Assembly (NCBI GenBank): GCA_028285205.1
Contig: JANQQA010000036.1
Coordinates: 1-64,000 of the forward strand
DNA: 64,000 nucleotides
Reading direction: 5' to 3'
Origin: Bythopirellula sp.
GTDB lineage: Bacteria; Planctomycetota; Planctomycetia; Pirellulales; Lacipirellulaceae
Part shown: positions 7,124 through 34,252 of the stretch, one piece after another
Numbering within the stretch: position 1 is the first letter of the stretch
How the letters are laid out: each line of letters starts with the position of its first letter
The notes under the pieces: model-generated
Seen by the model: only the letters and a program-made list of their open reading frames with translations
What the model was told of the DNA's origin: nothing
Databases searched by the model: none
Program-made: the position numbers and the translations under genes

Positions 7124-9808
7124 TTAAATCAGGCGAGGGTTCCGGCAGAATCGACAAGACGATACAGCCATTCCCAACAGGCACACGAGTACGGTCATTG
7201 ACGGTTCGGGCACTGTTACGAGCTGCTGAAATGCGTTCGCGCCATTTGCGGAAGTGTAGGCGTCCTTAAACAGGCCAAAGTCAATTGCGTTGCCTATTCC
7301 GTCATCATTAAGGTCGCTAACAGTAGATCCATAATTGTCACGGAAGATCACCCAGTCATTTGCATCCACCAAGCCATCGCCATCTAAATCACCCAGGATA
7401 TCGATCGGAACTGTGAAGTCAGCTGAGATGATCGCCCTCAATAAGGACTCGTCGCCAAACAAACTTTCATTGCCGCCGTTACCCAGCACGAAGTCGACGC
7501 TCTGCCCCGGGGAGATGGTCGCGTCAAAGTCGAAGGGCGTTTCGTCCAAGGTACTGCCGGTCCCATTCACAGAGAACTCCAGCACTCCATCTACATAGAT
7601 GTAAAACTCAACACTGTCTCCGGAAACGATGAAGTTACGAATGGAACCTCCAATATTGATGAGGCCGTCGACCGAGTCGCCGGCTGTCCACTGGGCGACC
7701 ACATACTGACGAGCTGCGTCACCCTGGAAGCCATCACCGCCTGGATGCAGCGACAGCTCGTGGTATCCCGGTGATCCTTGAATGCCAATATTGTCTCCGC
7801 CATCGACGAACAAGAACTCGTCCGAGATTGCTGCGAGGTTATACATGCCGTTTTCCCCCCCGCTAAATCCTTGATTACCAGCGTTTCCAACGTCCCCCCA
7901 CGTCATCAGCTGCAAATCGACGCCAGCAGCCGACGGGTTGGCATTGTCGGAGGAATAGTAGCTCCAGCTTCCTTCACCGGTGGTATCGGAGATCCCGCTT
8001 GCCGCATCGCCTGGGTTGTCCGCGGCTCGAAAGTCGGCGGCCAAGTCCGCTACGGTATTGAGAGCAACTGCGCCTGGGCGGCCGTACCAAAAGGTTGCTG
8101 CACCGATGTCAAGTGAGCCCTGCCGCCATTTCCAAACTTCCATATCGAACTTCAGCGATTCCTCAAACGGAAGCGTATCCAATCCACGCACGCGTCCGTT
8201 TACGGTTAGGCCGTTTCCCGTTGCGTCACGCTGACCAGTGGCAATAGGCTGAGTCACGAAGGGGCTGTCGAAAAGAGCTGCGCTACCGAACGAGTAGCCA
8301 TAGTAGTCTTCAGTGCCGGTGCCGACCTGATTGGGCGTAGACTCGGAACCATCACCATTGCCATCCAGATAGTCGACGTAGATCTTCTCGTCTCCTTCAC
8401 CCCACCAAAAGTCTCCGCTGGTACTAGAGCCAATGTTACGATTGCGGATTGACATGGTGTCACCGACATACACGCCACGCCCTCGAATATTGATGAAGCG
8501 AAAGTCAGCGTCACCCTCCGCACTATACCGTTCGTTTGATGGAATATTTCCATTGCCAACATCACGGGTCAGGATATCGTTTTCAGACCGGTAGTTGGAG
8601 TGGAAGTGCATCGAGTCGTTCGTCCACTGGTAGGCGCCTGTTTTGATTTCGAGGTCAACATTGACCGGGTTACCGCCAGCATTGATCAAGCGGACTTTCG
8701 CATCGTTTTGGTAAGGCATCACCCACCGTGAGGTTAGCGTGCCATCGCCTACGACGGTGCGGAAATAATCAGTCCCTTCGTTGTAGACATTGCTTGAATT
8801 CTCACTCCACCCGTTGCCGAAGAATTGGCCCGCCGGAACGCGCGCGGTCATTTGGCCATCAAACGTCAGCTCAATATACGTATCTGCCAAGGCATCACGC
8901 TGCTCAGCCGTCGAGCCGCCGTTAAACTTAAGCGTGATCTCTCGGATCGCCTGGCCATTGCTCGCGCCGCTGGGCGCTGTGAAGTTGCGATCGTAGACGG
9001 CACCAGTGACAAGCGATTGGCCGGTCGTGGTGTCGGTCGCATCCACCTGTCCGTGAATCGTGGAGCTACTAAGGCGGCTGTTGACGTTGCTAAGCTCGCT
9101 AGCGTAAGTCGCCGTCGAGCTGCCCGTGTAGGATTGAACGTCTGTACCCGGGGCATATTTTCGATAGTTGATGTTATACCAAAACGCGTTGCCCGTATTG
9201 TGTTCAGTCCCGCCGTTGGCGACGTACTCGCCGATGTTGGCAAACCCGCCATGGGTAGTGGGGCCATCCCAAGTTACTTTGACACCCGACGAATAAGTGA
9301 CGGGACCATAGAAGTTTCCTCCCAAGTTGGGAGTGCCAAAGTTAAGCGACGAGCCAAAACCAACGTTGTTACCACCGACCAGGCCTGTGGCACTTTGAGT
9401 CAACACCGGGGAGTTACTTCCGTTGACGTAGATACGGAAGTTGTTGTTATTGAGCAATGCGCCGTTAATCCCGGTAGACCACCAGCGTGTGATCGCGCCC
9501 GGACCGGAGTCCTCAAACAAGACCAACTCCTGCCGGCCCTGGTTGGTTTCCTGACGGATATAATTGCCGAAGTCGACATTCTCAAATCCCCAAGGTGAGC
9601 CTAGCTGGCTCCCAAGTGCAGTTCCATTTCGTGTGTCATGGCTTGATGCTTGCTCAAGCGTAAAACTGTTGCCTGGATGTTGCGTCAACTGGTCACGATC
9701 CGCCAATTCGTCTGCCAAGGTCCCTATCGTGATCTGAGCTGATGCTATACCTAATACAACGGAGTAAGCAATCGCTATACATATCGCCTGCTGCAAATAT
9801 AACCTCAT
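7124..9808 (-). CDS. GH172 (DUF2961) glycoside hydrolase A with dockerin and PEP-CTERM
   Basis: This 894-residue protein has a signal peptide (cut after IASAQ, about residue 25), a GH172/DUF2961 catalytic region of about residues 26-600, a following beta-sandwich-like module of unknown fold assignment (about 610-800, motif NIGIQGSPGYHELSLHPGG), a two-loop dockerin-like segment (806-850) and a VPEPS sorting signal at 867 with a short membrane helix and Arg/Cys-containing tail. Glu471 in WWGEGDEKIYVD and Glu500 in GTGTEDYYGYSFG match the two acidic residues known to be catalytic in GH172. Characterised family members act on alpha-D-arabinofuranosides or alpha-D-fructofuranosides. AAAGG lies about five bases before the ATG at 9808. 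It is the first gene of the sugar operon, preceded by a hairpin that ends the upstream gene. Confidence 0.88.
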   Translation of the reverse strand: MRLYLQQAICIAIAYSVVLGIASAQITIGTLADELADRDQLTQHPGNSFTLEQASSHDTRNGTALGSQLGSPWGFENVDFGNYIRQETNQGRQELVLFEDSGPGAITRWWSTGINGALLNNNNFRIYVNGSNSPVLTQSATGLVGGNNVGFGSSLNFGTPNLGGNFYGPVTYSSGVKVTWDGPTTHGGFANIGEYVANGGTEHNTGNAFWYNINYRKYAPGTDVQSYTGSSTATYASELSNVNSRLSSSTIHGQVDATDTTTGQSLVTGAVYDRNFTAPSGASNGQAIREITLKFNGGSTAEQRDALADTYIELTFDGQMTARVPAGQFFGNGWSENSSNVYNEGTDYFRTVVGDGTLTSRWVMPYQNDAKVRLINAGGNPVNVDLEIKTGAYQWTNDSMHFHSNYRSENDILTRDVGNGNIPSNERYSAEGDADFRFINIRGRGVYVGDTMSIRNRNIGSSTSGDFWWGEGDEKIYVDYLDGNGDGSESTPNQVGTGTEDYYGYSFGSAALFDSPFVTQPIATGQRDATGNGLTVNGRVRGLDTLPFEESLKFDMEVWKWRQGSLDIGAATFWYGRPGAVALNTVADLAADFRAADNPGDAASGISDTTGEGSWSYYSSDNANPSAAGVDLQLMTWGDVGNAGNQGFSGGENGMYNLAAISDEFLFVDGGDNIGIQGSPGYHELSLHPGGDGFQGDAARQYVVAQWTAGDSVDGLINIGGSIRNFIVSGDSVEFYIYVDGVLEFSVNGTGSTLDETPFDFDATISPGQSVDFVLGNGGNESLFGDESLLRAIISADFTVPIDILGDLDGDGLVDANDWVIFRDNYGSTVSDLNDDGIGNAIDFGLFKDAYTSANGANAFQQLVTVPEPSMTVLVCLLGMAVSSCRFCRNPRLI

Positions 9809-9887: not shown

Positions 9888-9919
9888 GCCTGGCCACCCG
9901 TATCTGCGAGTGGCCAGGC
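9888..9919 (-). terminator. Hairpin between PEP-CTERM gene and GH172 operon
   Basis: A perfect 10-bp stem (GCCTGGCCAC with GTGGCCAGGC) encloses a 12-base loop. It lies 46 bases after the stop of the minus-strand gene ending at 9966. On that strand it is followed by ATTTATGC, only a weak T-tract, so intrinsic termination is probable rather than certain. It separates the upstream gene from the GH172-led operon, whose promoter must then lie in about 9809-9887. Confidence 0.55.
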
Positions 9920-10991: not shown

Positions 10992-13900
10992 TTATTGGAT
11001 ATCCGAAATAAGTAGTTCGTCGATAGAAGTCGGCCTGTCGTCAGTTTCCCGATCGGCGCCAAACGCCTCTAAATCACCATTACGAAGCAATCTATTGATC
11101 CTTGTTCTTGCGCTTTGCTCTGCCTGGTCGGCGCGGGAGAGTTTACCTTCTTCCGCCACATTCCGAACCTTGCGAACAACGATGTCGCCCGTCGCGCCTT
11201 CCTCAACAGGCTGCTTGCTGGTACTTCCATCAGGCCAGCGAACCGTGATCATCTCGACGGGACTGACTTCGGATTCCGCAAGCAGTATTGCTGCCCCCGA
11301 CTGCGAGAGGTAACCGTCACCGGCATGGACCTCTCGTGTGACATTCTCTCCGCCGGTCAGTTGGATGCGAACACGAGCACCGACTCCGGTCGGGTTGCCA
11401 TCGTCACCTTGAAGCAGCACCTTTCTCAATCGCTTAGCTGCCTTCTGCGCCTGGAATACGCGGCTTCTGCCATTGTTCACGCCCACCATCACTCCCAAAC
11501 GCCCATCCCCGACAAGGTCGGCGACGATTAGACTCTTGGCATCCCCTGGAACCAGCAACCCGCTTTGACGCGACGGAACTGCGGCAAGCTCTCCGCGTCC
11601 ATCACCTAACATGAGTTGACTAACGCCACCGTCCATTCTGCCGGTTTCTCGCTGAGGTGTGAAGAAATTATGGACCACATATGCATCCGCATTTCCATCA
11701 CCATTGAAATCAGCGATCGCAGAACCAAACGCTGGCGCAACCTGAGCGATTCGTGGTAGCGGCTGAAACTGAAACCGCGCTTGCCCATCATTTATCAGCA
11801 TGCCATGGCGTAGTTCGCTTGCGTCGACTTGGTAGGCGTCGACGAGACTCTTTGGCGTGTAGATCTCATTCAATAAAGAAGATGCGAACTCGTGGTAGGT
11901 CGGCAGCTTCGAGCTAATAAATGGCATCGCGTTCTGCGAGCAACTTTTCCCGCGCACAGGCAGAAAACCGTCTGCGGTGCATTTGGCTTCAATGATTCGA
12001 GACTTGCCCGTTTCGTCGAACTCGCCATAGAACAGCATCGCTGGCTTCTTCGTGGTAGGGTGATACTTCGTGTTCAGTCCGAAGTTGGTTACGAGGTAAT
12101 CGATGTCACCGTCTTTGTCGATGTCACCAGCGGAGATCCCGTTCCACCAACCTTTGCGGCTTTCCAATCCAGAATCCTCCGTATGGTCACGGAGCACACC
12201 TTGTTCGTTCAGAAAAACTCCGACCGGCCCCCACTCGGTCGTCACTAGAAGGTCTATCCAACCGTCGTCATTGGCGTCCGACCAAACGGCTCCGGTTACC
12301 ATACCAACCTGCTTCAGGCCGAGAGCTAACTTATCGGTAACTTCAGTAAATTTAGGGCCTTCCTGGCCACTTTCGTTTAGCAGCAGCGTACTCTGTGGCA
12401 CCTGAGGATAGCTACCTGGGACGACTCGACCTCCTACGAACAAATCTAGATCGCCGTCACGGTCGAAATCTGCTGCGACCACACAACTACCGCTGGACTT
12501 TAGCTGCGGCAGGGCATTCACTGCTTTCTCAAACTCGCCCGTTCCGCTGTTGATGTAGAGACGATCTTGGAGCAGCTCCGAGTCTGGTCCAGATTCGACG
12601 CCGCCGCTTACGACATAGAGATCAAGATCTCCGTCACCATCAGCATCGAACAGCAACGCGCCCATGTCTTCGCACGGAGAATCTGGCTCGAAGGCGGGCG
12701 TTGAGTTTTTCCGGAATTGAATCGTGTCTGACTGATTCCGTATGGTGAATAACCGGCCTGCGGATCCAGCTGCCCCACCCATGTACAATTCGTCGACTCC
12801 GTCGCCGTCGACATCTCCGAAAGCAAGACCTGGACCAAGTTGTGATAACTTGTTGGGAAGTAACGGCTGCGAAGCAAAATCGTCGAACGGCCTCTCATTA
12901 TGTCGCGGCGAATTCCCGTCTTCGTTTGAGACGAAGTCTGTCGTTACCGCTTTCGCTGCGAATTCCGATTGGGATCCTACGCTGGGCTCAGTGACGGTGT
13001 ACACAAAGTTGGCTGCGATATCCCGTAGCGTCTGGACGCGTTGGCTTGGCCATAGGATTTTTACCTTGTCAATGACCTCAACGTCTCCCAATCCAAATTG
13101 AATGACCGGCTGATCATTTGACATAAACCCACGAGCCAACGTTAAGTAGCGTGATTGAACACCATCAGCGGTGTAAATGCGAACTAGCGCACCGATTCCT
13201 TGGGAGTTGCTCTCTGTTCCACGTAGTCGAAGAATCACGCGATTACCCACCGCAACGTCGTTTCGATAAACCGATGCGGGTTCGTCAAAGTTGTTGACGA
13301 TAAGGTCGAGGTCGCCATCTCCGTCAAAGTCTCCATAGCCCGCACCAAAGCTGACAGACTCTAGATTAAGCCCCCAGGATGCACTTCGGTCTGCAAACTC
13401 CAGATCGCCAAGATTCCGAAAAGCTAGATTTGCGTCGTCCTTTCTACTGACGTGATGACGGAGCGTGTCAAATCCCCCGCCATGTTCCGCTCGAATATCG
13501 CTGTTGAGCCAATCGCCTGTCATGCCGTTGGAGATGAACAAATCGCACCAGCCGTCGCAGTCCAGGTCAGCGAATTTCACTGCCCAAGTCCAGTCAGAAT
13601 TGGAAAGGCCTGCCATGTGGGCCACTTCCAGGAAACGATCGCTTCCTGTGTTGACGTACACGGCATTTCGCATGTACTGCGGTGGGTCGGAGCTATCGAG
13701 GAACCAAGCACTGTCCGACATATCACCCATGCCAAGCTTTTGCTTGTAATGCGAGGTTCCCGACATGTCCGATGCCATAAAATCCAGTAAACCATCGTTG
13801 TTGACGTCTGCCACGTCGGTTCCCATGGAGAACCAGGGAATATGAGGCAGGACATCTCTCGCAACATCGTCGAACGTGCCATCTCCGTTATTCCGATAGA

Positions 13901-16593: not shown

Positions 16594-19500
16594 CTATTGA
16601 AATCTCCGACGTGTGAACTGCAAGAAGGCAACTCCGCCAAAGGCAATGAGGCTCATCGTATTTGGCTCGGGAACTGCTTCCAAAGCTTGAAACGGGAACC
16701 CCCCTTGAACGCCAGCCGCTAGGAGGCCGTTGTGCAGAATGAACACGTCACCAAGGTCGACAGTACCGTCGAAGTTGAGGTCGCCGTTCTGCCGAGAAGT
16801 CCAGTCACCGACCTGTGCACCGCCAACAACGTTCTGGCTTTTCCAACCCGGCAAAAACGCAGTGATGTCGGCTCCATTAACGGTGCCGTCTAGATTGACG
16901 TCGGCAGCATCTGTGACCCCCAGATTTGCCAGCTGGGCGACAATCCACTCGTTGTCTTCGGCAAGACTGAAATCGCCATAGTCCATACCCACCGCGGCAG
17001 GGTTGTTGTTGGTTTCGGTCGTACCGGAATTGTCCCCAAACACAAACAGTTTGACGTCATCCAATGTTCCCTGGAAGAAATTGTCTGTACCATCTTGATT
17101 GGCTCCGATGGTAAGTGCGGTGGCTTCGCCAAAGTAGAAACCTTGATCCACGCCGGCTGCGCTTCCGTCGAGAAATAGCGCTCCGCCCCCAGCGGCGGTC
17201 ACATTCATGACATGTACCCATTGATCATAGGCGACGCTCACCCCGGTATCCGTTTCACGCCCACCGAAGAGCAGTCCCCAGGTATCGTTCTCGGTAATGT
17301 ATATGCCATGCTGTTGAGTATCGATAACGATATCCTGGCGGACACCTTGCTTGCCAGAATTAGGTCTCACCCAAGCTTGGATTCCCCTGCCGAGCACACC
17401 ATCGTAATTCAATGGGTAATCATTGTTGGGGAAAAAATCCTGATTGTCCCAATAGTCATTCGGTGAGTTCAAGCTTATGACGGCAGCCAGGTATTCGGCG
17501 ACTCCATCGAAATCCGCACCAAGTGCACCGCTCGATGCGCCCAAGCGTGACGAAGCGTCCGCGTAAGTCGGTGTACCGAGCACTTGGATGTCCTGGGCGT
17601 CGACGAAATTAACCGTGTCCACAACCGCGCTGTCAGCCGTGAATCTTCCACCCGGGCCCGTGAAGTTGGCACCGACTTCGCCGCCGAGAACTGCGCCCTC
17701 GACAGAATCGTCACCCAATTGGTAGTCCCGATCCAGCGTCACTGCGGCGCTGGACACACTGAGCATTGAAAACAGGGCAAGCGATGCGGCCACGACGCCC
17801 AAGACTCGTGGAGCTACCTTGGAAGTGGAGTCGATTTTTTCTCGACGAAAGCCTCTGCGACGGCGACCACCGAGCGCCGCAAACGCCGCCACTGCAGCAA
17901 GTATTCCTGTGGATGGCTCAGGGACCGTGGCGATAGAAGCTGCTAGAGTTCCAGCACCATAGTTCTGCTGCCAATCGTTGAGTCCACCCGGGGTGCCATC
18001 AACACGCTGCCACGCTAGGAAGTCAGCGCCATCGACATCACCATCTCCGTCAAAGTCACCGGCCTGGCTATCAATGAAGATGACATTTCCATCGACCAAC
18101 TGCCCACCTGACCGGAACGTGAACGCCAAACTGTCTTCGTCTGCTGGACTCGATCCGTCATAAATGTCGCCAAGCGAGAAGGGACCGTTGCTGTTGTTGA
18201 TTTCAGAACTGCCGGCCAAGAAGGCTTCAGCGAGCTCATTACCATCCAAGTTCCCGAGCTTCTCCCAGCCGTCACCGACGCCAGTACCCGAAGGCAGCTG
18301 CCCTCCACCGCTGAGGCCAGTAAATCCGGTGTTGAGCACACCCTGGTCACTCGTGATGCTGTAAAAGTCGATGTCGAAGGGGGTACCGGTATCGTTGTCG
18401 ATAACGGCGGTCCCCGAGTTTCGATTTACCTCCAGTGTCAACGTGGGAACGAAACCTTCAACTTCAAACTCAATCGTGGAAATGAAGCCGTTGCCATCGC
18501 CGCCCGCGTTGCCGGCACCGTTGCCGATCAAACGGATACCCAAGATATTATCCTGGGGTGCGAAATCAAACGTGGCGAAATCTGAAACCACCGCGTCAGG
18601 GAAGCCTGTACCACGGACGTTTCCGGTCAGCGACGTGACATAATCGTTGGTGGTTGCAACATCCGTCCACGCCGTTCCATCAACAGTGACCTGCAGGGTC
18701 GGAGCCAACAGGTCACCCGCTGTCAGTGGTTGACCGGCATCTACGGTAGTAGTTGGACCCCACCAGCCGCCGTCATTTGCGAGGAAATGCTGAACTCTCA
18801 CCTGATCGACTCCCGTGACCGGGGAGGCCCATTCGATACCGACCCAGTCAAACTCCTTGGCAACCTCCGCAATGCCGCCGGCCCATGTGTCAATTCCATT
18901 GCCTGCGGCCGCGGATTCTCCCGTACCGTTAATGACTACTGCTTCCGCTGGGGTACCCGAAATGCCGTCATTCACCTCTGTCAGCGCAACACCATTCACG
19001 TGATCGATGGCGCCGGCTCCTGCGATATCATCTGCAATACCCATGATGGCAGTACCACTGGGGGCAATGTTTGCTGCCATTGCACTCGAACTAGCAAATA
19101 AAATTGGCAGGCAAGCCAACGCACAGACGTTCGCTCTCGTAGTTAGTTTCACTGATCGACTCCCCGTTGTTGTTCCTTCGCTGTTGCTGTCGCAAGAGCT
19201 CTTTTGAATTCGCGAACGGCCCGCCACGGTGGCCAAGCCAATGACAAGTAGGGCCAATCCAGAGGGCTCGGGTACGGGCTGCCCCGCAACCATTGCCGCA
19301 AACGCCGCAGCCCCCTGATTGGCGATAAACGCATCTTTGAACAATCCGTAGTCAACAACATCGACAACTCCGTTGCCGTCCATATCTCCCATTTGATAAC
19401 TCTGAGCTGGCGTGAGAGCAGCCAAGTCGGCGTTGTAGTTATCACGCACCGTCGGCCAATCGGCCGCATCAACAGCACCACTGCGATCAAAATCGCCGAC

Positions 19501-20634
19501 GATTAGAGGATTCGAAGACGAGACTCCGTCGTAGCTGATTTGCACGTTCGATCGAGTTCCGTCGTCGAACAAGAGTTCCATCTGCAAATCGTCACCAAAC
19601 GGATTAGGCGTCCAAATCTGACCTAGAGACATCGACAAGCCGGCTCCGAACTGAGCTCCGTCACCGGAGGGCACATTGAGTTCAGCTTCGCCAATGCTGG
19701 TTGCGGAGCCTGGCAGCTCAGTCCAGTTGTCGTTCGTATCCACCTGCACGCCGCCTGTGGGACCCGAGTTGGCATCGTAGTTATCTGCGATCGAAGTCCA
19801 ACCAGTAGGATCCAATGCACCGACACTTGCTGCTGAGGTAATGTCGTAGCCAATGATATTGCCGGGGATACCGGTTGGCGAGTTCAAGACTAATTCGCCT
19901 GTTACCGTATCCACGTCCAGCGTCAAGGTTGTAGCACCTTCCACTGTGAACTCGATTGCTGAGATGAATCCATTTGCATCCGTTGCGGCATTACCGGCGG
20001 CATTTTCGATCAATCGAATACCGAGCAGTCCGTCCTGCTCAGCAAAATCGAAGGTAGCGACGCCCGAGACAGTACCGTTGGGAAACCCGGTGCCGCGAAC
20101 GTTGCCTGTAAGCGCCGCAACGTAGTCGTTGGTGGTCGGCACGTCCGTCCAAATCGAACCGTCAGTGGTCACTTGCAGCGTCGGTGCGGTGATGTCGCCG
20201 GCCGCCAGCGCTACGCCACTCTCAACTGTAGTCACCGGTCCCCACCAGCCACCGTCGTTGGCGAGAAAGTGCTGGACTGTAACTTGGGTGGCGTCATTGA
20301 CCGGAGTGCCCCATTCGATGCCGACGAAATCGAATTCTTTGCCCACTTCAGGAATGGCACCGGCCCAGGTGTCCGTTCCGTTGCCGGTTGCACCTGACGT
20401 ACCATCGCCGTTGATCACAACTGCACCGCCAGGTGCCCCCGAGATGCCATCGTTAATTTCCGTTGTAGCCGGTCCGTTGGAGTGAAGAATTGATCCCGCC
20501 CCAGTAATGTCATCGGCAAGTCCCATTATGGCTGTACCGCTCGGGGCGACGTTCGCTGCCATCGCAGTCGCACTTAGAAGGCTAATTGACGCACAAGCTA
20601 GTACAGCGCTAGCGGCTGCTCTTCCAATATTCAT
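16594..20634 (-). CDS. Three PEP-CTERM proteins joined in one reading frame (possible polyprotein)
   Basis: From the ATG at 20634 (GGAGAG five bases upstream) one frame of 1346 residues runs without a stop. Cassette 1: signal peptide 1-26, discoidin-like domain 27-234, two dockerin-like loops 379-436, PEP at 455-457, helix and basic tail to about 478. Cassette 2: second signal peptide about 495-520, second discoidin-like domain 521-729, one dockerin loop about 859-874, PEP 905-907, helix, RRRR at 924-927. Cassette 3: third signal peptide about 938-964, LamG-like domain about 1034-1199 (IQAWVRP, DDVKLFVFG), dockerin pair 1244-1304, PEP 1322-1324, helix, final RRR. Each sorting helix ends in basic residues and is followed by a new signal peptide, so alternating membrane insertion and processing into three products is topologically possible. 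Loss of stop codons by mutation or small sequence errors at the joints is the main alternative. Confidence 0.8.
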   Translation of the reverse strand: MNIGRAAASAVLACASISLLSATAMAANVAPSGTAIMGLADDITGAGSILHSNGPATTEINDGISGAPGGAVVINGDGTSGATGNGTDTWAGAIPEVGKEFDFVGIEWGTPVNDATQVTVQHFLANDGGWWGPVTTVESGVALAAGDITAPTLQVTTDGSIWTDVPTTNDYVAALTGNVRGTGFPNGTVSGVATFDFAEQDGLLGIRLIENAAGNAATDANGFISAIEFTVEGATTLTLDVDTVTGELVLNSPTGIPGNIIGYDITSAASVGALDPTGWTSIADNYDANSGPTGGVQVDTNDNWTELPGSATSIGEAELNVPSGDGAQFGAGLSMSLGQIWTPNPFGDDLQMELLFDDGTRSNVQISYDGVSSSNPLIVGDFDRSGAVDAADWPTVRDNYNADLAALTPAQSYQMGDMDGNGVVDVVDYGLFKDAFIANQGAAAFAAMVAGQPVPEPSGLALLVIGLATVAGRSRIQKSSCDSNSEGTTTGSRSVKLTTRANVCALACLPILFASSSAMAANIAPSGTAIMGIADDIAGAGAIDHVNGVALTEVNDGISGTPAEAVVINGTGESAAAGNGIDTWAGGIAEVAKEFDWVGIEWASPVTGVDQVRVQHFLANDGGWWGPTTTVDAGQPLTAGDLLAPTLQVTVDGTAWTDVATTNDYVTSLTGNVRGTGFPDAVVSDFATFDFAPQDNILGIRLIGNGAGNAGGDGNGFISTIEFEVEGFVPTLTLEVNRNSGTAVIDNDTGTPFDIDFYSITSDQGVLNTGFTGLSGGGQLPSGTGVGDGWEKLGNLDGNELAEAFLAGSSEINNSNGPFSLGDIYDGSSPADEDSLAFTFRSGGQLVDGNVIFIDSQAGDFDGDGDVDGADFLAWQRVDGTPGGLNDWQQNYGAGTLAASIATVPEPSTGILAAVAAFAALGGRRRRGFRREKIDSTSKVAPRVLGVVAASLALFSMLSVSSAAVTLDRDYQLGDDSVEGAVLGGEVGANFTGPGGRFTADSAVVDTVNFVDAQDIQVLGTPTYADASSRLGASSGALGADFDGVAEYLAAVISLNSPNDYWDNQDFFPNNDYPLNYDGVLGRGIQAWVRPNSGKQGVRQDIVIDTQQHGIYITENDTWGLLFGGRETDTGVSVAYDQWVHVMNVTAAGGGALFLDGSAAGVDQGFYFGEATALTIGANQDGTDNFFQGTLDDVKLFVFGDNSGTTETNNNPAAVGMDYGDFSLAEDNEWIVAQLANLGVTDAADVNLDGTVNGADITAFLPGWKSQNVVGGAQVGDWTSRQNGDLNFDGTVDLGDVFILHNGLLAAGVQGGFPFQALEAVPEPNTMSLIAFGGVAFLQFTRRRFQ
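19150..19165 (-). promoter_or_regulatory. Internal Shine-Dalgarno and GTG start for the second PEP-CTERM cassette
   Basis: Exactly at the N-terminus of the second internal signal peptide lies GGGGAG (19165-19160), seven bases and then an in-frame GTG (19152-19150) that would start MKLTTRANVCAL. In the next frame a TGA overlaps this GTG (GTGA), the usual arrangement of coupled genes. So cassette 2 can probably be started independently even though the frame from cassette 1 is open. It suggests either dual expression or a recent fusion of two coupled genes. Confidence 0.55.
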
Positions 20635-21581
20635 AGTTGCTCTCCGAGAATTGAATTTACGCTGCAACAATCCGCTGATACCTGGCCAAAACCATTTAGA
20701 CTTACGCCGCACCATACCTAAGTTAGTGAACAAGTAGCGCGAACCATTATGAGTGATGAGTTCAGTGATGCGAGAAGAGTGAATTGAGCGGAAGAGCGAC
20801 GACAGTGGTGAGCACAAAAACTCCCGCTACATCCCTATTGAAATCAGAAGTTGTGATCCTGTACATGGAATATGTCACTTCGTGGATGGATATATTAGCA
20901 CTGGCTAGTCGACTGGCTATGACACCGTTTGAGATGGAACACGACGCTATACGAGGTAACCCGCTTCCCACAATATACGGCTAGTGTTTCGACTCTCATG
21001 TGCAGCCTGTCCCTTGATTCAGATAACCGAGTACCCTGGATATACTATCCTCTACGTGCCCTGGACAAATGCCATATGGCTCAACAGAAAGGTTCTGCCG
21101 CTCGCGACCGCCATCGCGAATCCGTGCCGATCACGTCCAATAAACGCGATTTCTAGCCATCAGACGAAACGGACGCCATTCACCCTGCACAAGCGCGGAG
21201 GGTTGCCGCCCAATCGTCCTGCCGACACGCGGAAATCGCCCAGGCCGAGGCACAACCGTTCAGAACGGGCGCGGTAAAACCAGAGTTGGGCAACAAGAAA
21301 GTTGACGAAAAGCACAGTCAGCAGCAGTGGATTCCGCCATGCTACGCTTACAGGACACCCATAGGTTGCCTGTGCTGGCCAGTCTAATCAATGCCAATAT
21401 AGGCAAGTTGTTTTGATTCAGGTGGGCAGCAAGTATTCCAAGTTTTGCGGCTACACGCAAAACATCGAAGCGACTCTTGAAGTCTCTGAACTCGGCAGAG
21501 TCATTCACGAAGTTATCTCTAGGGACTCGATCACTTCGGCCGTGTCAGTCTCAGATGACCTAGCATTTTCGGGGGCGTCGG
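20635..21581. other. Intergenic region, no gene recognised
   Basis: About 950 bases lie between the start of the joined PEP-CTERM gene and the decayed GH172 copy. Only short, compositionally unconvincing reading frames are present on either strand. The promoter of the minus-strand PEP-CTERM gene must lie within the first few hundred bases. I see no transposase remnant, tRNA or strong hairpin here. Confidence 0.5.
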
Positions 21582-24035
21582 TCATTCCTCGTAATCGAGA
21601 TCAACGAGCGATTCGATCGGGGGTCGATAGTTGGCTGATATAACAGCCCTAAGCAATGATTCGTCACCCAACGAATTATTCGTGCCGCCATTGCCGAGCA
21701 CAAAGTCAACAGACTGGCTTGGTCGAACTATGGTGTCGAAATCGAAATACGTTTCTGCCAGGGTAGCGCCCTCTCCATCGACTGAGAACTTGAGGACACC
21801 GTCCACGCAAATGAAAAAGATGACGCTATCGCCGTTGGCAACGAAGTTGCGAATTGAACCGGCAATGTTAACCAACCCGTCGACTGCGTCACCAGCAGTC
21901 CAGCGGGCGACCAGGTAGTCATACTCGGTATTCTGACCACCAGGATGCAATGCCAACTCGTAATAGCCTGGTGCTCCTTGGACGCCAAGGTTCTTATTGC
22001 CGTAAACGAACAGGTACTCGTGGGAAACTGCTGCTGCGTTCTATGGTCCTTTCTCACCGCCACCATATCCCTAGCTGCCTGCGTGACCGACCTTTCCCCA
22101 AACCAGTGCTACCCGATCGGCTGCGGCCTCAGACGGACCTGCCCGGTTAGACTTGAAGTACTTCCAGTGGCCTTTGCCTGTCGAATCTGGGACATTCATC
22201 GCCCGCTTTCCTTGGACCAACGCTTGGAAGTCAGCGGCGAGATTTGCAACTTCGCTCAGCGAGACGGCTCCGGGCGACCCATACCAAAACGTCGCGTCGC
22301 CGTGATCGACCTCACCCTAACGCCATTTCCACACTTCCAGATCGAATTTGAAGGATTTGCGAAACGGGATCGTGTCCAGACCGCGTATGCGGCCGTTGAC
22401 GGTCAGCCCTCTGGGGTTGTTGCGTTGGCCGGTTGCGATGGGCTGAGTGACGAAAGGGCTAGTAAAGTGCGTGCCGCTGCCGAACGAATAACCGTAGTAG
22501 TCTTCGCACCGGTGCCAACGTGAACCGGTTTGGCGGACGATCCGTCGCCGTTCTCGTCTCCTTCCCCCACCATCCATCCGGACTCCCGCCGTCTCCGACA
22601 TCGCGGTTGCGCACTGAGAGCGTATCGCCGACGAATTACGCCACGTCCGCGGACAACGAGAAAACGGAAGTTGGCATCTGCCTGTCCGGCGCTATCAATG
22701 TTGCGGTGTTTCGTCACTGCACGGGTTTTGATGCCTTTGCTCTCGCGCTAGTCGGCGTGAAAGTGCATCGAGTCGTTCGTCCAACTGTAGTCTCCCACCT
22801 TCACTTGCAGGTCAAAGTCCACCTCTTGGCCATATCTATTGATCAGACGTACGGCGGCCTCGTGTTGGTAAGGCATGACCCACCGCTTAGCGTGCCATCG
22901 GAGGCGACGGTGCGGTAGTAGTCGCTGCCTGGGTTATCAGCGTTGCGAGAATTTTCGCTCCAGTCATTTCCGAAGAACTGACCAACAGGGACCCGAGCCG
23001 TCATCTGACCGTCAAAAGTCAACTCAACCAACACCCCGGCCAACGCATCGCGCAGATCAGCAGGGCTCGAACCATTGAACTTTAGCACTAGCTCGCGAAT
23101 CGCTTGACCATTTCCCTTCTCGGTGGGAGCTTGGTAGCTACGCGAAAAAGTGGCGCCGGCGACTAGTTTCTGGCTCGTTATCGTATCAATGCCGCTGAGA
23201 TGGCCTTGGACCGTCGCCGACCCAAGGCGGATGCTGGCGGTATCAAGTTCAGGGGCGTACTTCGTGGTTGAACTTGCGGTGAAGTCCTCGACGATGGTTC
23301 CTGGTGCATACTTCCGATAGTTGATGTTGTCCCAAGTGGAATTGGTACGCTGCTCAAGGTTACCGGTGCCTGTCGCCAGTTGTCGGCTCAGCAGGTTTGG
23401 ATAGTCGACGCCGTCACGATGGTGTGTAGAAGGGCCGTCCCAAGTCACCTTAATGCCGTGCGCATAGGGAATTGGTCCGTAGGAATTCCCGCCTAAGTTA
23501 GGCGTCATGAAGCTGAAGCTTTCGCCGAACCCCCAACGTGTTCTTGTGGCCATTCCGACCAACAAATTCGTTTGCGCTAATGGTCGTGACAGGAGATTCC
23601 GAGAATCTTCCCTAGCTGTCGGCCATGTAGATGCGGATATCATTGTCGAGGATGCCGCTGTTCAACGCGGTTGTCCACCACCGAGTAATTACACCGGGGC
23701 CCAAATCTTCGAATGCGACCAACTCGCGGCGCCCGCTGTTTGTTTCGAAGCGCTCCCAGTTACCGAAATCCGCGTTCAGCCCACCCCATGGCCTGCTCAG
23801 CGAAGAAGTCAGGCCGGACACGCCGTTGCGCCGGTCATGGCTGGATGACTGTTGAAGCGTGTCGTACGCTGGAGAAAAACGTGAGGGCATCACGGTCCGC
23901 CAACTCGTTGGCTAGCGTTCCAACGGTAATTTGCGCGGAATCCGGGGCAGATAAGAGCCCTGCCGCAACAAGCAAGACTATTCGTGTAAGTCGAAAGTGT
24001 TCACAACTCAATCGAATTCGGCGCCTCGATCCCAC
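21582..24035 (-). pseudogene. Decayed GH172 copy B
   Basis: Fragments of a GH172 protein follow each other on the minus strand but in different frames: the N-terminal signal and TLANELADRDALTFF (about 24035-23850), PWGGLNADFGNWERFETN (23893-23612), a long middle piece (23643-22843), EDYYGYSFGSGTHF and NGRIRGLDTIPF (22601-22317), and the beta-sandwich module (21956-21582), which ends in a stop just where the dockerin would begin. The GEGDE motif region (22717-22500) is scrambled, and at least four frameshifts and stops are needed to read it. The pieces are close to gene C, which faces away across 24036-24406, e.g. both contain ALHPGGQNTEYDYLVARW. This is a decayed duplicate; expression of a working enzyme is excluded as sequenced. 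Confidence 0.85.
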
Positions 24036-24174: not shown

Positions 24175-24193
24175 AGTGCTAAAATGTCTATGC
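24175..24193 (+). promoter_or_regulatory. Candidate AraC-family operator in the GH172 B/C divergent region
   Basis: The 19-base sequence AGTGCTAAAATGTCTATGC occurs here and, inverted, at 27561-27579 just before the AraC-family regulator. A related half-site (GCAAAATTAGC) lies directly upstream. Downstream, TACAATATAATG (24228-24239) looks like a sigma-70-type -10 region, about 47 bases from the AAAATGTCTA core. An exact 19-base repeat between two non-coding promoter regions of the same locus is unlikely by chance. Binding by the neighbouring AraC-type protein is inferred. Confidence 0.55.
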
Positions 24194-24406
24194 TCTTTAT
24201 TGTTCAGTCCATGGCTTGTGTTGTAACTACAATATAATGTGAAAAGCGAGGCGAAACTATTCGAAACAATTCTGGTGGCGCTCACATCGACAACCTCTAG
24301 CGTCGCATCAACCTCATCGACTACGTCAACGACTTGGCCGCTGGACTATTTGTGTTGTTCCTCGCATGCACCGGGATAATTCTGGTACCAATTTGGAGAC
24401 CGACTC

Positions 24407-27163
24407 TTGAGACAACATAAGCCGACCGTAGCACCAACCGCGTCGTTGATGCTCTTGTTTCTGTTGTTGACATGCTTGATGCCATGCACAGTTTTCGCGC
24501 AAGTTACGGTTGGCTCGCTTGCTAACGAATTGGGCGATCGCGATGCGTTGACACTTTTCCCGACGGGCTCCAGCGTCTACACGCAAGAGCAAGCCTCAAG
24601 CCATGATATGCGTAACGGAGACCCGAGCCTGACATCCTCCCTGGGCCGACCTTGGGGTCAGCTCAATGCCGATTTTGGCAACTGGCAGAGAATCGAAACG
24701 AATCAGGGCCGACAAGAGTTGGTCGCCTTTGAAGATCTCGGCCCTGGCGCGATCACGCGATGGTGGACGACAGCTGTCAATGCAGGTGTGTTGGACAACA
24801 ACTATCGAATCTATCTGGCCGATTCCAGCGGCAATTTTTCTCAGGCACCAGACTTTACTCTCACCGGAAACGACCTGACCGGTCGCAACGGCGCCGGCAA
24901 CGCGCTAGGCTTTGCTTCAGGACTTAACTACGCCACACCTTTGCACGGGGGCAACTCGTACGGTCCGATCACCTACCAGCACGGCGTCAAGGTCACTTGG
25001 GACGGACCGACCACTCACAATGCAAACGGCACACACGCCAACATCCGCGATCAGGCCTTGGCGGGAAGCAACAATATCAGCTTTAGTAATGCTGTCTGGT
25101 ACAACATCAACTACCGCAAATACCAGCCAGGCACCGTGGTTGAGGACTTCAGCTCAAGTTCCGCCTCAACCTACTCGAGCGAACTCACTCAGGTAAGCTC
25201 GCGGCTGACATCACCGGCCACCTACGGACATGTAGGCGCAACGGATACGATTAGCGATCAGGCCATCTCCAACGGTGGCACGTTAACTCGCAACTACACC
25301 GCCGGTGGTGGCACTAACGGCAAAGCGATCCGGGAGATCTCGTTGAACTTCAACGGCGCAAATACGGCGGATCATGCTGCAGCGTTAGCAAATACCTTTG
25401 TGGAATTGACCTTCGACGGCCAGACGACGGCGCGGGTGCCTGCTGGTCAATTTTTCGGGAATGGGTGGAGTTCCGTAAGCGGCGGCGATTACAACGACGG
25501 AGGCGACTACTTTCGCTCGGTTGGTTCCGATCAGCACATGACCGCACGTTGGGTCATGCCTTTTCAAAGCACTGCCGAAGTCAAACTCGTAAATGGCAGT
25601 GGCCAAGTCGTAAACGTCGATCTAGAAGTCAAGACCGGCGACTATCAATGGTCTAGCGATTCGATGCACTTTCACGCGGACTTCCGGAGTAGTGAAGACA
25701 TCAAGACCCGTGAGGTGTTCAATAACAACGAATTAGGCGATGCCGATGTGCGCTTCATTAATGCCCGTGGTCGTGGCGTTTACGTTGGCGATACCATGTC
25801 GATCCGCAACATAGATGACGGTAGCCGCAACAACCACTGGTGGGGCGAGGGCGACGAGAAAATCTACGTCGACTACCTAGGCGCGAATGGAGAGGGCCAT
25901 TCGACCGCGCCCGTTCACTTGGGCACGGGGACGGAGGATTACTACGGATACTCATTTGGCTGGGACACCGAGTTCGGCATCAACGACGACCCACCCTCTG
26001 AGTTCTTCGTCAGCTCATTTGTCGCCCAGCCCAATGGATCGGTCAACCTGGGGCCTGACGTAGCTGGTCGTATTTTGGACCTCAACAATGTCACAATTAA
26101 CAGCCGTATCCGTGGCCTGGACGCAATTCCATTTCAAGATTCTTTCAAGTTCGATATGGAAGTGTGGAAATGGGCAGAGGGCTCTGTCGACATCGGAGCG
26201 GCAACTTTCTGGTACGGTGAGCCGGGCGCTGTGTCGCTCAACACCGTTGCCGATTTGGCGAGTGATTTCCAAGCTGCAAGCAACGGGACGTTAGCAGAAA
26301 GTATCCCGGACACGACCGGCACAGGACAATGGGATTACTTCAAGTCCGACAACGCCGATCCGTCAGCGATTGGAGTCGACCTGCAGACTCTCGCCTGGGG
26401 CGATGTCGGCAACGCCGGCAACCAGGGATATGGTGGCGGAGAAGAGGGGTCTTGGAACGTAGCAGCGATATCTGATCAGTTCATCTTTACAGACGGAAGT
26501 GATAATATCGGCATTCAAGGTGAGCCAGGCTACCAAGAGCTAGCCCTACATCCTGGTGGTCAGAATACCGAGTATGACTACCTGGTCGCCCGCTGGACTG
26601 CTGGTGACGCAGTCGACGGGTTGGTTAACATTGCCGGTTCAATCCGCAACTTCATCAACAACAGCGACAGTGTTGAGTTCTTTATCTACGTCGATGGTGT
26701 GCTTGAGTTTTCTGTCGATGCTCTCGGAACAACGCTCGACGAAACGTATTTTGATTTCGATTCTACAGTCAGCTCAGGCCATACGGTCGAATTCGTACTC
26801 GGCAACGGTGGTGCGGACAATGTATTCGGCGACGAATCGATTTTGAAAGCTGTTATTTCAGCCAACTATTTGGCGCCCGTCGAATTGCTACAGCTGTTCG
26901 GAGATCTTGATGGAAATGGTTCTATCGGTGCAGGTGACTGGCAAATTCTTCGTGATGGATATGGCACCTCCGTAGGCGACCTGAATGACGATGGCGTAAA
27001 CGACGTGGTCGACTTTGGGCTCTTCAAAGACGTTTACATCGCCACGCACGGTGCAGCCGCCTTCGAAGCGATCTCGGTACCCGAGCCTCAGGCGATCATG
27101 AGCGCCGGCATGCTATTTATGATTCTAACGGGTAGCCGCTTACGCAACACTTCTGGTCGATAG
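24407..27163 (+). CDS. GH172 (DUF2961) glycoside hydrolase C with dockerin and PEP-CTERM
   Basis: This 918-residue protein has the same plan as copy A: signal peptide (to about residue 31, VFAQ), GH172 region about 32-620, the NIGIQGEPGYQELALHPGG beta-sandwich module, a two-loop dockerin-like segment (FGDLDGNGSIGAGDW and GDLNDDGVNDVVDF) and a VPEPQ sorting motif with a short helix. Glu481 in WWGEGDEKIYVD and Glu510 in GTGTEDYYGYSFG are the expected catalytic pair, 29 residues apart as in copies A and G. The TTG at 24407 is supported by GGAG eight bases upstream; an in-frame ATG at 24449 is the alternative and would shorten the signal peptide. The gene is divergent from the decayed copy B and is preceded by the candidate operator at 24175. 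Secreted or surface-anchored exo-furanosidase activity is inferred from the family. Confidence 0.88.
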   Translation: MRQHKPTVAPTASLMLLFLLLTCLMPCTVFAQVTVGSLANELGDRDALTLFPTGSSVYTQEQASSHDMRNGDPSLTSSLGRPWGQLNADFGNWQRIETNQGRQELVAFEDLGPGAITRWWTTAVNAGVLDNNYRIYLADSSGNFSQAPDFTLTGNDLTGRNGAGNALGFASGLNYATPLHGGNSYGPITYQHGVKVTWDGPTTHNANGTHANIRDQALAGSNNISFSNAVWYNINYRKYQPGTVVEDFSSSSASTYSSELTQVSSRLTSPATYGHVGATDTISDQAISNGGTLTRNYTAGGGTNGKAIREISLNFNGANTADHAAALANTFVELTFDGQTTARVPAGQFFGNGWSSVSGGDYNDGGDYFRSVGSDQHMTARWVMPFQSTAEVKLVNGSGQVVNVDLEVKTGDYQWSSDSMHFHADFRSSEDIKTREVFNNNELGDADVRFINARGRGVYVGDTMSIRNIDDGSRNNHWWGEGDEKIYVDYLGANGEGHSTAPVHLGTGTEDYYGYSFGWDTEFGINDDPPSEFFVSSFVAQPNGSVNLGPDVAGRILDLNNVTINSRIRGLDAIPFQDSFKFDMEVWKWAEGSVDIGAATFWYGEPGAVSLNTVADLASDFQAASNGTLAESIPDTTGTGQWDYFKSDNADPSAIGVDLQTLAWGDVGNAGNQGYGGGEEGSWNVAAISDQFIFTDGSDNIGIQGEPGYQELALHPGGQNTEYDYLVARWTAGDAVDGLVNIAGSIRNFINNSDSVEFFIYVDGVLEFSVDALGTTLDETYFDFDSTVSSGHTVEFVLGNGGADNVFGDESILKAVISANYLAPVELLQLFGDLDGNGSIGAGDWQILRDGYGTSVGDLNDDGVNDVVDFGLFKDVYIATHGAAAFEAISVPEPQAIMSAGMLFMILTGSRLRNTSGR

Positions 27164-27560
27164 TCATATGCCCTCACGGCGGCTTGCGTAGATTTTTGGG
27201 CTGAAGAACTAACTGATGCGCAGAACTGTTGCAGCAAGCAACGCATGTTCAGCAGTCAGACAAGCTTGCACTAATCCGCTCGCCAATCAGCGAGTTCTTC
27301 AAACGTCGATCTATTGCCCTTGGAGTTCTTCACAAATTCCACTGGCTTGCGGCTCTATCACGTTAGACCGCCGCACACCGAGGCGGCATTTGCGTTGCAT
27401 TCATGGCCCTCAGTAGCACGCGACGCAGTTTCGATTAGCGATCGCGCGGAGCTGCTGGCATCGTCTGACAGGTCCAATTGGTTGCAATTCGGTATGCTCA
27501 CAGCCCAATTCTTGGATTCGGCCTCGAATCACTATCGCCACCTGGAGTATTTCACGTGAA
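27164..27560. other. Intergenic region before the AraC-type regulator
   Basis: About 400 bases after GH172 C hold no convincing reading frame, RNA or repeat. The interval ends at the palindromic operator candidate that precedes the regulator gene. No strong terminator hairpin for the GH172 C transcript was recognised. Confidence 0.45.
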
Positions 27561-27602
27561 GCATAGACATTTTAGCACTATGCGAAATGCGAAAATGTCT
27601 AT
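27561..27602 (+). promoter_or_regulatory. Palindromic operator candidate upstream of the AraC-type regulator
   Basis: The left arm AGACATTTTAGC (27565-27576) and right arm GCGAAAATGTCT (27589-27600) are inverted repeats with one mismatch and a 12-base spacer. The left arm belongs to a 19-base sequence that is found exactly, in the other orientation, at 24175-24193. A TACAAT (27642-27647) about 50 bases from the AAAATGTCTA core of the right arm resembles a -10 box in the same relative position as at the GH172 promoter. This suits autoregulation plus control of GH172 C by the regulator. No binding data exist; this is inference from sequence. Confidence 0.6.
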
Positions 27603-27725
27603 TCGCCGCAGTCCAACGTGGTTCTCGTGTTCCTGTGTTCTTACAATAGAATGCGGGTAATCGAGGTTCGTGTGGGAAGCCAGTGTGAGTTGAAATATCC
27701 TTGTGACTCGAATATCCTATCCTCT

Positions 27726-28631
27726 ATGACTGAAGGACGACTACAGCTTCACGGACAAGTGATACCAATCGCGACGGCAGTCACTGATGCCGCGTATTGC
27801 TTCAAGAAGTACGAAAACAAGCAGTCCACTGGTGAGGGCCCAAAGCTGCTGTGCGCGGGCCGCGAGAAATGCAAGCCGAACTACCATGTGGCGCGATCTG
27901 ATTTCTCGTGCAACCTTATCGAATTCGTATGCATGGGAAGAGGGCGGTTGAACTTGCTAGGCGAGTCGCACGCATTGACTGCTGGCCACATTTTCAGTTA
28001 CGGAATGACGTCGGCACACGATCTGTGGAGTGATGCTGATGAGCCAATGACTAAGTACTTTGCTGCTTATCTTTGGGACTCTGAGGCCGGTGGTTCCAGC
28101 GAAAACACGCTGCTGCCGGGTATGATTCGCTGGTCGCGTGATATCGCTGTGTTGAGGACGCTGTTCGATGAGTTGATCAAAGAAGGACAGCAAAGCGGTA
28201 AGATGCACGAAGAGATTACTGCACGCTATTTAGAGCTGATTCTATTGAAGGGCGGTGAAGCTCTTTTGCCGGAAGCCGCACGAGGTAACGGTGGATCGGA
28301 CTCTTTTGACCGCGTAATGGGACTTATTGACGGGAGCTTTTCTGAAATTGATTCGCTGGAAGAGCTTGGGAAGTTGTGCGGGTTACAACCAAACTATATT
28401 TGCCGTCTCTTCCGTAAATTCAGTCAGGAAACTCCAAACCAGTGCCTAACTCGGCTTAAGCTAAATCGAGCGGCCGAGCTTCTGTTAGCGCACTCAACAT
28501 CGGTGAGCGAGATCGCTCGACAGGTTGGGTATGCAGATCCATTTTACTTTTCGCGGGTGTTCAAGCAGCGTTTTGGTTGTTCTCCGAAGGATTTTCGCGA
28601 ATCGCCGATCCAAGGGAAGAAGTCGAGTTAG
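27726..28631 (+). CDS. AraC/XylS-family transcriptional regulator
   Basis: The product has an N-terminal cupin-like sensing region (about residues 30-130, with ARSDFSCNLIEFVCMGRGRL) and a C-terminal double helix-turn-helix of about 100 residues, seen as SLEELGKLCGLQPNYICRLF, then VSEIARQVGYADPFYFSRVF and FGCSPKDFRES. These are the AraC family hallmarks. The frame is open back to 27618, but a likely -10 box at 27642-27647 makes upstream starts improbable; the ATG at 27726 gives a family-typical 301 residues, though it lacks a clear Shine-Dalgarno sequence. AraC proteins usually bind a sugar and activate catabolic genes. Its place amid GH172 genes and the shared operator motif suggest it controls this locus. 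The start site is uncertain. Confidence 0.85.
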   Translation: MTEGRLQLHGQVIPIATAVTDAAYCFKKYENKQSTGEGPKLLCAGREKCKPNYHVARSDFSCNLIEFVCMGRGRLNLLGESHALTAGHIFSYGMTSAHDLWSDADEPMTKYFAAYLWDSEAGGSSENTLLPGMIRWSRDIAVLRTLFDELIKEGQQSGKMHEEITARYLELILLKGGEALLPEAARGNGGSDSFDRVMGLIDGSFSEIDSLEELGKLCGLQPNYICRLFRKFSQETPNQCLTRLKLNRAAELLLAHSTSVSEIARQVGYADPFYFSRVFKQRFGCSPKDFRESPIQGKKSS

Positions 28632-33329: not shown

Positions 33330-34252
33330 CACGCGCAAGGCGATCAACTTTTGGGGTCATCCGGGCGCCGACGAAGCAGGCGGGATCGACTCCACGCACA
33401 CGCATCGTCATGCCTTATCACTCGAGGTGATTGAGATTGCCGAGATTCACTTGCCTAAGGGGACTCATATCCTCAGCGCGATCGAGCTGACCGGTTCTGC
33501 GGAGGCGTTGGCCAACGCACGTGACGCGCGGATCGAAATCTACTGGAACAAAAAGGACGTCTACAACAACAACGAAAAACCCTCCGTGATGCTCCCGCTG
33601 TCCTACCTGTTCGGCAATAGCAGTCGTGACGGCGTGTCCCGTTCGCTCATCTCGGGAACCGAGAAAGAGCGTTGGTACTGCTTCCTACCGACGCCGTCCA
33701 GTCAGTTTGCTCGCATGACGATCCGGGCCAACAAGGCCTTCGACGCCAAGCTGTCGATTAACGTCAAGTCGCTGAGCACCTGGGAAGTGGGCCTACCTTC
33801 ACGGCAGTTGGCGTCAGGAACTTCCTACCTAGCGCGGTCGGAACTATCTCTGGTGGAACCAAAGTAAGGTTCGTGGCCATTATGTCGGTACAATCTTGGA
33901 CACCGAGGGAGTGCAACCCGAGCGCGATTGGCTACCGATTTGGCTGGAAGGCGAGGAGACATTCCACGTCGATGGCGAGCTTGTTCATCACGGGACTCGC
34001 ACCGAAGACTACTTTGACTGCGGATGGTACGGTGTGCCCAAGCGGCTCGACAATCCAGGGACTTACCCGCTGCACGGTTACACGGCATACTTCCAGGGTC
34101 CTCCGACGACTTACGCCACCAGTTATCGCTGGCACTTACCCGATCCGATACCGTTTGCGGATAGCATTCGTGCGCAGATCGAGGTAGGCCCCACGAACAA
34201 TATCCGAGCCAACTACAATAGTGCTGTGTTTTACTACCTAGACAAACCATAA
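33330..34252 (+). pseudogene. Decayed, N-terminally truncated GH172-like gene D
   Basis: A first piece in frame 1 (about 33427-33800: VIEIAEIHLPKGTHILSAIE, then SGTEKERWYCFLPTP) and a second in frame 2 (about 33850-34252: GHYVGTILDTEGV, WLEGEETFHVDGE, HGTRTEDYFDCGWYG, YRWHLPDPIPFADSI) together make a DUF2961-like protein of the YRWH/IPF subtype. Between them there is a frameshift near 33795 and an in-frame TAG close by. The N-terminal half with the signal peptide is missing: upstream to 33146 only a degraded sequence is seen. The stop at 34252 is followed 15 bases later by GH172 gene E. A product is unlikely unless the frameshift is a sequencing error, which would still leave the front truncated. 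Confidence 0.75.

Follow-up and report, generated by a model that had tools for sequence, protein, structure and literature searches.

A predicted AraC-type operator of two direct half-sites at GH172, PEP-CTERM and regulator promoters in a planctomycete

Overview

Two promoter regions share a 19-base site in a 64,000-nucleotide stretch of DNA from Bythopirellula sp. (the window). This site very probably represents the stronger half-site (H2) of a predicted AraC-type operator, within a circuit that would comprise activation of its targets, autoregulation and a furanose inducer. The most secure part of this reading, in which we place high confidence, is that the site belongs to a predicted operator of the AraC-type regulator encoded at 27726–28631; that the operator would activate its targets is probable, at a lower level of confidence. 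The system is best read as a narrow AraC-type regulon, a small and previously undescribed circuit of a familiar kind, and a search of the literature on AraC-type operators in Planctomycetes gave nothing relevant. The half-sites, their period, conservation, co-occurrence with the regulator and offset from the −10 element were read from sequence; binding, activation, autoregulation and the inducer are what we infer.

The repeated site and its palindrome

The sequence AGTGCTAAAATGTCTATGC occurs as an exact 19-mer at 24175–24193 on the plus strand and, inverted, at 27561–27579 on the minus strand, as an earlier, sequence-only reading of the window had described. A further copy with three mismatches is located at 27586–27604 (+). 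Both exact copies are intergenic, one upstream of the GH172 C gene and the other upstream of the AraC-type open reading frame (ATG at 27726), in agreement with their earlier placement in promoter regions. The palindrome reported at 27565–27600 does exist, with limits that had been slightly trimmed: its arms (27563–27577 and 27588–27602) are complementary at 14 of 15 positions and are separated by 10 nt.

In the shuffled window, 0.03 matches to the 19-mer are expected at up to three mismatches. Pattern searches of the whole 7.9-Mb assembly identified three copies of the 15-base core ATAGACATTTTNGCA with at most one mismatch, all three within the window; the remaining 28 genome matches all carry two mismatches, and the reversed-pattern control gave 17. 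Since shuffles predict so few matches and core copies are so few genome-wide, we regard the repeat as genuine and specific. The full-genome motif scan proposed by the sequence-only reading thus revealed no scatter at unrelated places, the outcome that would have spoken against it.

Operator architecture and conservation

Alignment of the upstream regions of regulator homologues revealed that the conserved element spans 37 bp and is built of two half-sites in direct repeat, with a period of 21 bp, described by the pattern MTGGA-N16-MTRGAHWWNHTAGYAC. The 19-mer is one half-site of this element, its core being H2 at 24176–24191. The earlier description of the site was therefore sound for the repeat but incomplete, as it was limited to one half-site and missed a fuller copy at 20865–20901. 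The window contains three predicted operators:

24176–24212 (−), predicted GH172 C operator, ATGGACTGAACAATAAAGAGC-ATAGACATTTTAGCAC; H2 at 24176–24191 and the weaker H1 at 24197–24212, 21-bp period
27542–27578 (+), predicted regulator-gene operator, CTGGAGTATTTCACGTGAAGC-ATAGACATTTTAGCAC; H1 at 27542–27557 (CTGGAGTATTTCACGT) and H2 at 27563–27578 (ATAGACATTTTAGCAC)
20865–20901 (+), additional predicted operator, ATGGAATATGTCACTTCGTGG-ATGGATATATTAGCAC; promoter side toward the minus-strand run below it

The mutual inversion of the two 19-mers, previously regarded as a feature of the site, arises because two operators lie in opposite orientation; the operator itself is a direct repeat of half-sites. 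Direct repeats with the 21-bp period precede the regulator gene of the window, its 74% identical paralogue on contig C110 of the same genome (ATGGAATATCTTGTCGTCGGC-ATGGATATTTTAGCAC), and the orthologues in genomes G014, G030 and G033. The H1-H2 direct pair and its constant period are present in all 11 well-supported operators, and all six genomes that encode a close homologue, two held-out ones among them, have an operator about 150–200 bp upstream of the regulator.

A matrix built from six regulator promoters, a training set that included the window's regulator promoter and excluded the GH172 C and 20865 sites, scored these two sites at 21.8 and 29.1, respectively, compared to at most 18.4 among 20 shuffled 64-kb windows. 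A second matrix, from three promoters of other genomes, recovered the held-out promoters of G064 (33.5) and G065 (23.7), as well as the C110 operator (21.0) and the 20865 operator (19.2) of the genome itself, with a null 95th percentile of 16.9. In this strictest held-out test, the two sites of the sequence-only reading scored 15.2 and 13.9, within the null range, and their support thus comes from the fuller matrix and the exact match.

The genome has exactly five perfect matches to the pattern, all on the two contigs bearing the two regulator copies. Ten occur in total in the 43 family genomes, confined to regulator-bearing genomes and each located at the regulator promoter or in the regulator's cluster. 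The G033 operator departs from the pattern at two positions, and one-mismatch matches in two regulator-less family genomes are at control level. As the final pattern was partly fitted to the sites reported with it, the held-out promoters and the regulator-less genomes weigh most. The site tracks the regulator across genomes, which upholds the link originally drawn between them.

The AraC-type regulator

27726–28631 (+), AraC-type regulator; N-terminal cupin-like sugar-sensor fold followed by a two-HTH AraC DNA-binding domain

The C-terminal domain of the regulator consists of two helix-turn-helix motifs (PF12833, E = 4.8e-21; PF00165, E = 1.1e-17), as required of an AraC/XylS family member. 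Proteins of this family recognize asymmetric half-sites, in many cases arranged as direct repeats, and the conserved 21-bp repeats at the regulator promoters may be sites of this type. The best NCBIfam match is the AraC equivalog NF007860, at 70.3 bits compared to a cut-off of 208, and an identity as the AraC of an L-arabinose operon was rejected on this basis. In the structural model (pLDDT 81.5), a cupin-like barrel at the N-terminus is followed by linker helices and a pair of HTH motifs. This N-domain resembles those of the lactose sensor BgaR and of AraC (2ARC), and its predicted fold is that of a cupin-type sugar-binding and dimerization domain.

Besides the paralogue on C110, homologues at 51–56% identity are present in five further genomes of the same family (G014, G030, G033, G064 and G065). 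Among 397 sampled genomes of the class, homologues at E below 1e-40 were confined to the family, and one scan of the genome contigs with the regulator as query returned distant AraC-family relatives only. Homologues at 27–38% identity (G031, G035, G045, G058 and G061) were set aside as candidate orthologues; in the three loci scanned, the G031 operator is degenerate at best, and G035 and G061 showed none.

Promoter geometry and target genes

24407–27163 (+), GH172 (DUF2961) protein C, alternative start at 24455; PF11175, E = 7.9e-39; behind the 24176 operator
24233–24238 (+), TATAAT, likely −10 of the GH172 C promoter by position; about 20–21 nt past the operator
20837–20842 (−), TTCAAT, −10-like; at the conserved offset from the 20865 operator, with AAT at 26–28 nt
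16594–20634 (−), tandem 'NIAPxGxAIMG' secreted PEP-CTERM protein; first in the run headed by the 20865 operator
7124–9808 (−), GH172 A; lower in the co-directional run below 20865
3798–5438 (−), AraB-type ribulokinase; same run; NF003154, 634 bits (cut-off 428)
2105–3805 (−), L-fucose/D-arabinose isomerase-type (FucI-like) protein; same run; weak Fucose_iso Pfam match

An AAT trinucleotide lies 26–28 nt beyond the operator on the H1 side in 8 of 12 operators, including that at 20865, and none of 5000 circular shifts was equally good at offset 26. H1 of the 24176–24212 operator points to the GH172 C promoter, whose −10 sits two nucleotides nearer the operator than in the other promoters. With the −10 at the conserved place, the operator would span about −35 to −71; because this position resembles that of araI2-araI1, the operator appears positioned for activation of GH172 C, of the PEP-CTERM gene and, in the relatives, of the gene divergent from the regulator. 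By eye, the target promoters lack a good −35 hexamer. The predicted layout, in which the operator abuts the −35 region at a constant distance from the −10, is that of class II activator-dependent promoters.

The same geometry bears on the possibility that the regulator is a repressor that keeps GH172 C and the PEP-CTERM run silent in the absence of the sugar. As H1 abuts or overlaps the −35 region, binding there could also block polymerase. However, promoters without a good −35 and with a constant operator-to-−10 distance are typical of activator-dependent class II regulation, and AraC-family proteins that bind direct repeats of such layout are mostly activators. We therefore consider repression improbable and favor activation.

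The 20865 operator heads a 19-kb minus-strand run encoding PEP-CTERM proteins, GH172, ribulokinase and the FucI-like isomerase. The regulon suggested from the sequence alone, GH172 C plus the regulator, was thus right in its members and too small in its extent, as the candidate set also takes in this run and the C110 cluster. The further suggestion that GH172 B was formerly a target was not borne out: the operator turns its conserved promoter side toward GH172 C, and nothing points to pseudogene B.

Several other features of the locus were observed. The open reading frame at 16594–20634 (−) passes through what appear to be three tandem PEP-CTERM proteins with no stop between them, its internal PEP-CTERM motifs being followed by fresh signal-peptide-like stretches. 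A strong hairpin of 13 pairs with a weak T tail (9888–9919, −) is located between the PEP-CTERM gene and GH172 A; it may terminate or modulate the long transcript of this strand, and could thus cut off GH172 A, the kinase and the isomerase from the 20865 operator. GH172 pseudogene B (21582–23939, −) is spread over several frames with a stop, and a GH172 remnant at 33767–34237 (+) contains two stops. Contig C110 (13,445 bases) carries a second cluster with the 74% identical regulator, a GH172 gene, a xylose-isomerase-like TIM-barrel protein and an alpha-L-fucosidase; a DUF1559-like gene on this contig has its own predicted operator at 11711–11747.

Among the relatives, a homologue of the PEP-CTERM protein is the divergent neighbor of the regulator in G014, G033, G064 and G065, and in G030 an isomerase homologue lies directly behind the regulator's operator, followed by GH172. 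The window regulator no longer has a divergent partner. A search for operators near other GH172 and isomerase genes of G014, G033, G064 and G065, within the stretches covered, found none at the isomerase genes and none at most of the GH172 genes. On this basis, the conserved core is the PEP-CTERM protein and not GH172 control. At least five GH172 matches, some of them fragments of one gene, occur in six of six regulator genomes compared to 1 of 37 others (Fisher 1e-6, with kinship and genome size ignored). One family genome, G026, has 18 GH172 matches and neither this regulator nor the operator.

The regulator promoter and the third half-site

27690–27718 (+), regulator promoter, TTGAAA-17 nt-TATCCT; 7 nt before the ATG at 27726
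27587–27602 (−), third half-site H3 (ATAGACATTTTCGCAT), inverted; palindrome partner of H2; score 14.0 (null 99th percentile 8.2)

The pattern TTG-N20-TAN3T is found upstream of all seven regulator homologues (background frequency 0.0002). As it ends only 6–7 nt ahead of the ATG in each of them, the regulator mRNA is likely leaderless in this group. The conserved −10 is missing from the divergent side of the regulator operators of the window and of C110, which lie 120–185 bp from the regulator start. A candidate autorepression half-site over the regulator −10 (CTGGACTATCTTTGC, in G014 and relatives) was rejected, with a low score except in G065.

Among the seven regulator promoters, five have their best inverted half-site at +9..+24; the four other target promoters do not share this offset. 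H3 and the palindrome thus characterize the promoter region of the regulator and are not part of the operator shared with the targets. The inverted half-site is strong in the window (14.0) and in G033 (11.8) and weak at the remaining regulator promoters. The nearly perfect arms (14/15) might suggest that a regulator of the conventional symmetric type uses the palindrome at 27563–27602 as its operator, the copy at 24175, the better conserved half of its pair, being a lone half-site. This is very unlikely, given the direct H1-H2 pairs at every well-supported operator and an inverted partner that is strong at just two regulator promoters and absent at non-regulator targets. That the 24175/27561 identity is a relic of a duplication or inversion within the locus and has no part in regulation, as a locus rich in GH172 duplicates and with a pseudogene might invite, can be dismissed almost entirely, since the similarity of the two sites ends at the operator and the element is kept in other genera, with held-out orthologues at 54% protein identity.

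E. coli AraC switches by looping to araO2. The regulator promoter of the window could conceivably be a compact three-half-site switch, H1>H2><H3, with H2 common to both pairs, an arrangement that we consider unlikely. One dimer would then bridge either the direct H1-H2 pair (active) or the inverted H2-H3 pair (resting or autorepressing), and if it works in this manner, the classic AraC switch would have a counterpart that needs no loop.

Proposed circuit and inducer

At the predicted targets (GH172 C, the run below 20865 and the C110 DUF1559 gene), H1 would abut the −35 region with the −10 about 20–22 nt further on. RNA polymerase would be recruited by a sugar-bound regulator dimer occupying H2-H1, in the manner of AraC at araI1-I2. 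In the promoter of the regulator itself, H3 faces H2 in the palindrome, an arrangement that may serve autoregulation. The GH172 enzymes would set free the inducer, probably D-arabinose or a related furanose. D-arabinose would be converted to D-ribulose and then to D-ribulose 5-phosphate, for which the isomerase and ribulokinase types of the run would be just the enzymes needed.

Gene families expected for D-arabinofuranoside use are present, namely GH172, ribulokinase and isomerase (the last with a weak Fucose_iso match). GH172 members include exo-D-arabinofuranosidases (PMC10115798), and others act on alpha-D-fructofuranosides (PMC8605356). The assignment of D-arabinofuranosides as the substrate is tentative and could nearly as readily hold as fail. 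The predicted operator, regulator and target set in a planctomycete group are ready for testing, and would tie GH172 enzymes to a pentose route via an AraC-type sensor.

Comparison with known systems

The predicted system resembles E. coli AraC/araBAD in its two direct half-sites, the weaker one being nearest the promoter (PMC4760080, PMC2893085), with araI1-I2 as the activation site of AraC (PMC4760080). The half-site core TGGA/TAGA is as in TATGGATAAAAATGCTA, the reverse complement of araI1, and the operator has the same orientation toward the target promoter. The E. coli araI1-I2 sequence, as checked, reads TAGCATTTTTATCCATA-AGAT-TAGCGGATCCTACCTG, then 21 nt, then TACTGT, which we take to be the araBAD −10; the −10 is thus about 21 nt past the operator in araBAD, compared to 20–22 nt here. 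In both systems, the regulator is often divergent from its target and a ribulokinase is encoded in the same cluster, and the modeled sugar-sensor fold is similar to that of 2ARC. In contrast, the regulator is not an AraC equivalog, its predicted targets are GH172 and PEP-CTERM genes, and the regulator promoter carries an inverted third half-site, with no distal araO2-like site identified. The operator matrix does not recognize araI1-I2 (−8.9). Its best match in the E. coli ara region, presumably araO1, is marginal, and recognition of that region by the same matrix was rejected (p = 0.05 at best).

BgaR is the best single-domain structural match to the modeled N-domain (6nwo, TMt about 0.78), despite an identity of about 14%. 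PUL42 of Dysgonomonas gadei, a D-arabinan locus from another phylum, combines GH172 exo-D-arabinofuranosidases with an abundant fucose isomerase (PMC10115798), a likeness that here lies in the gene families.
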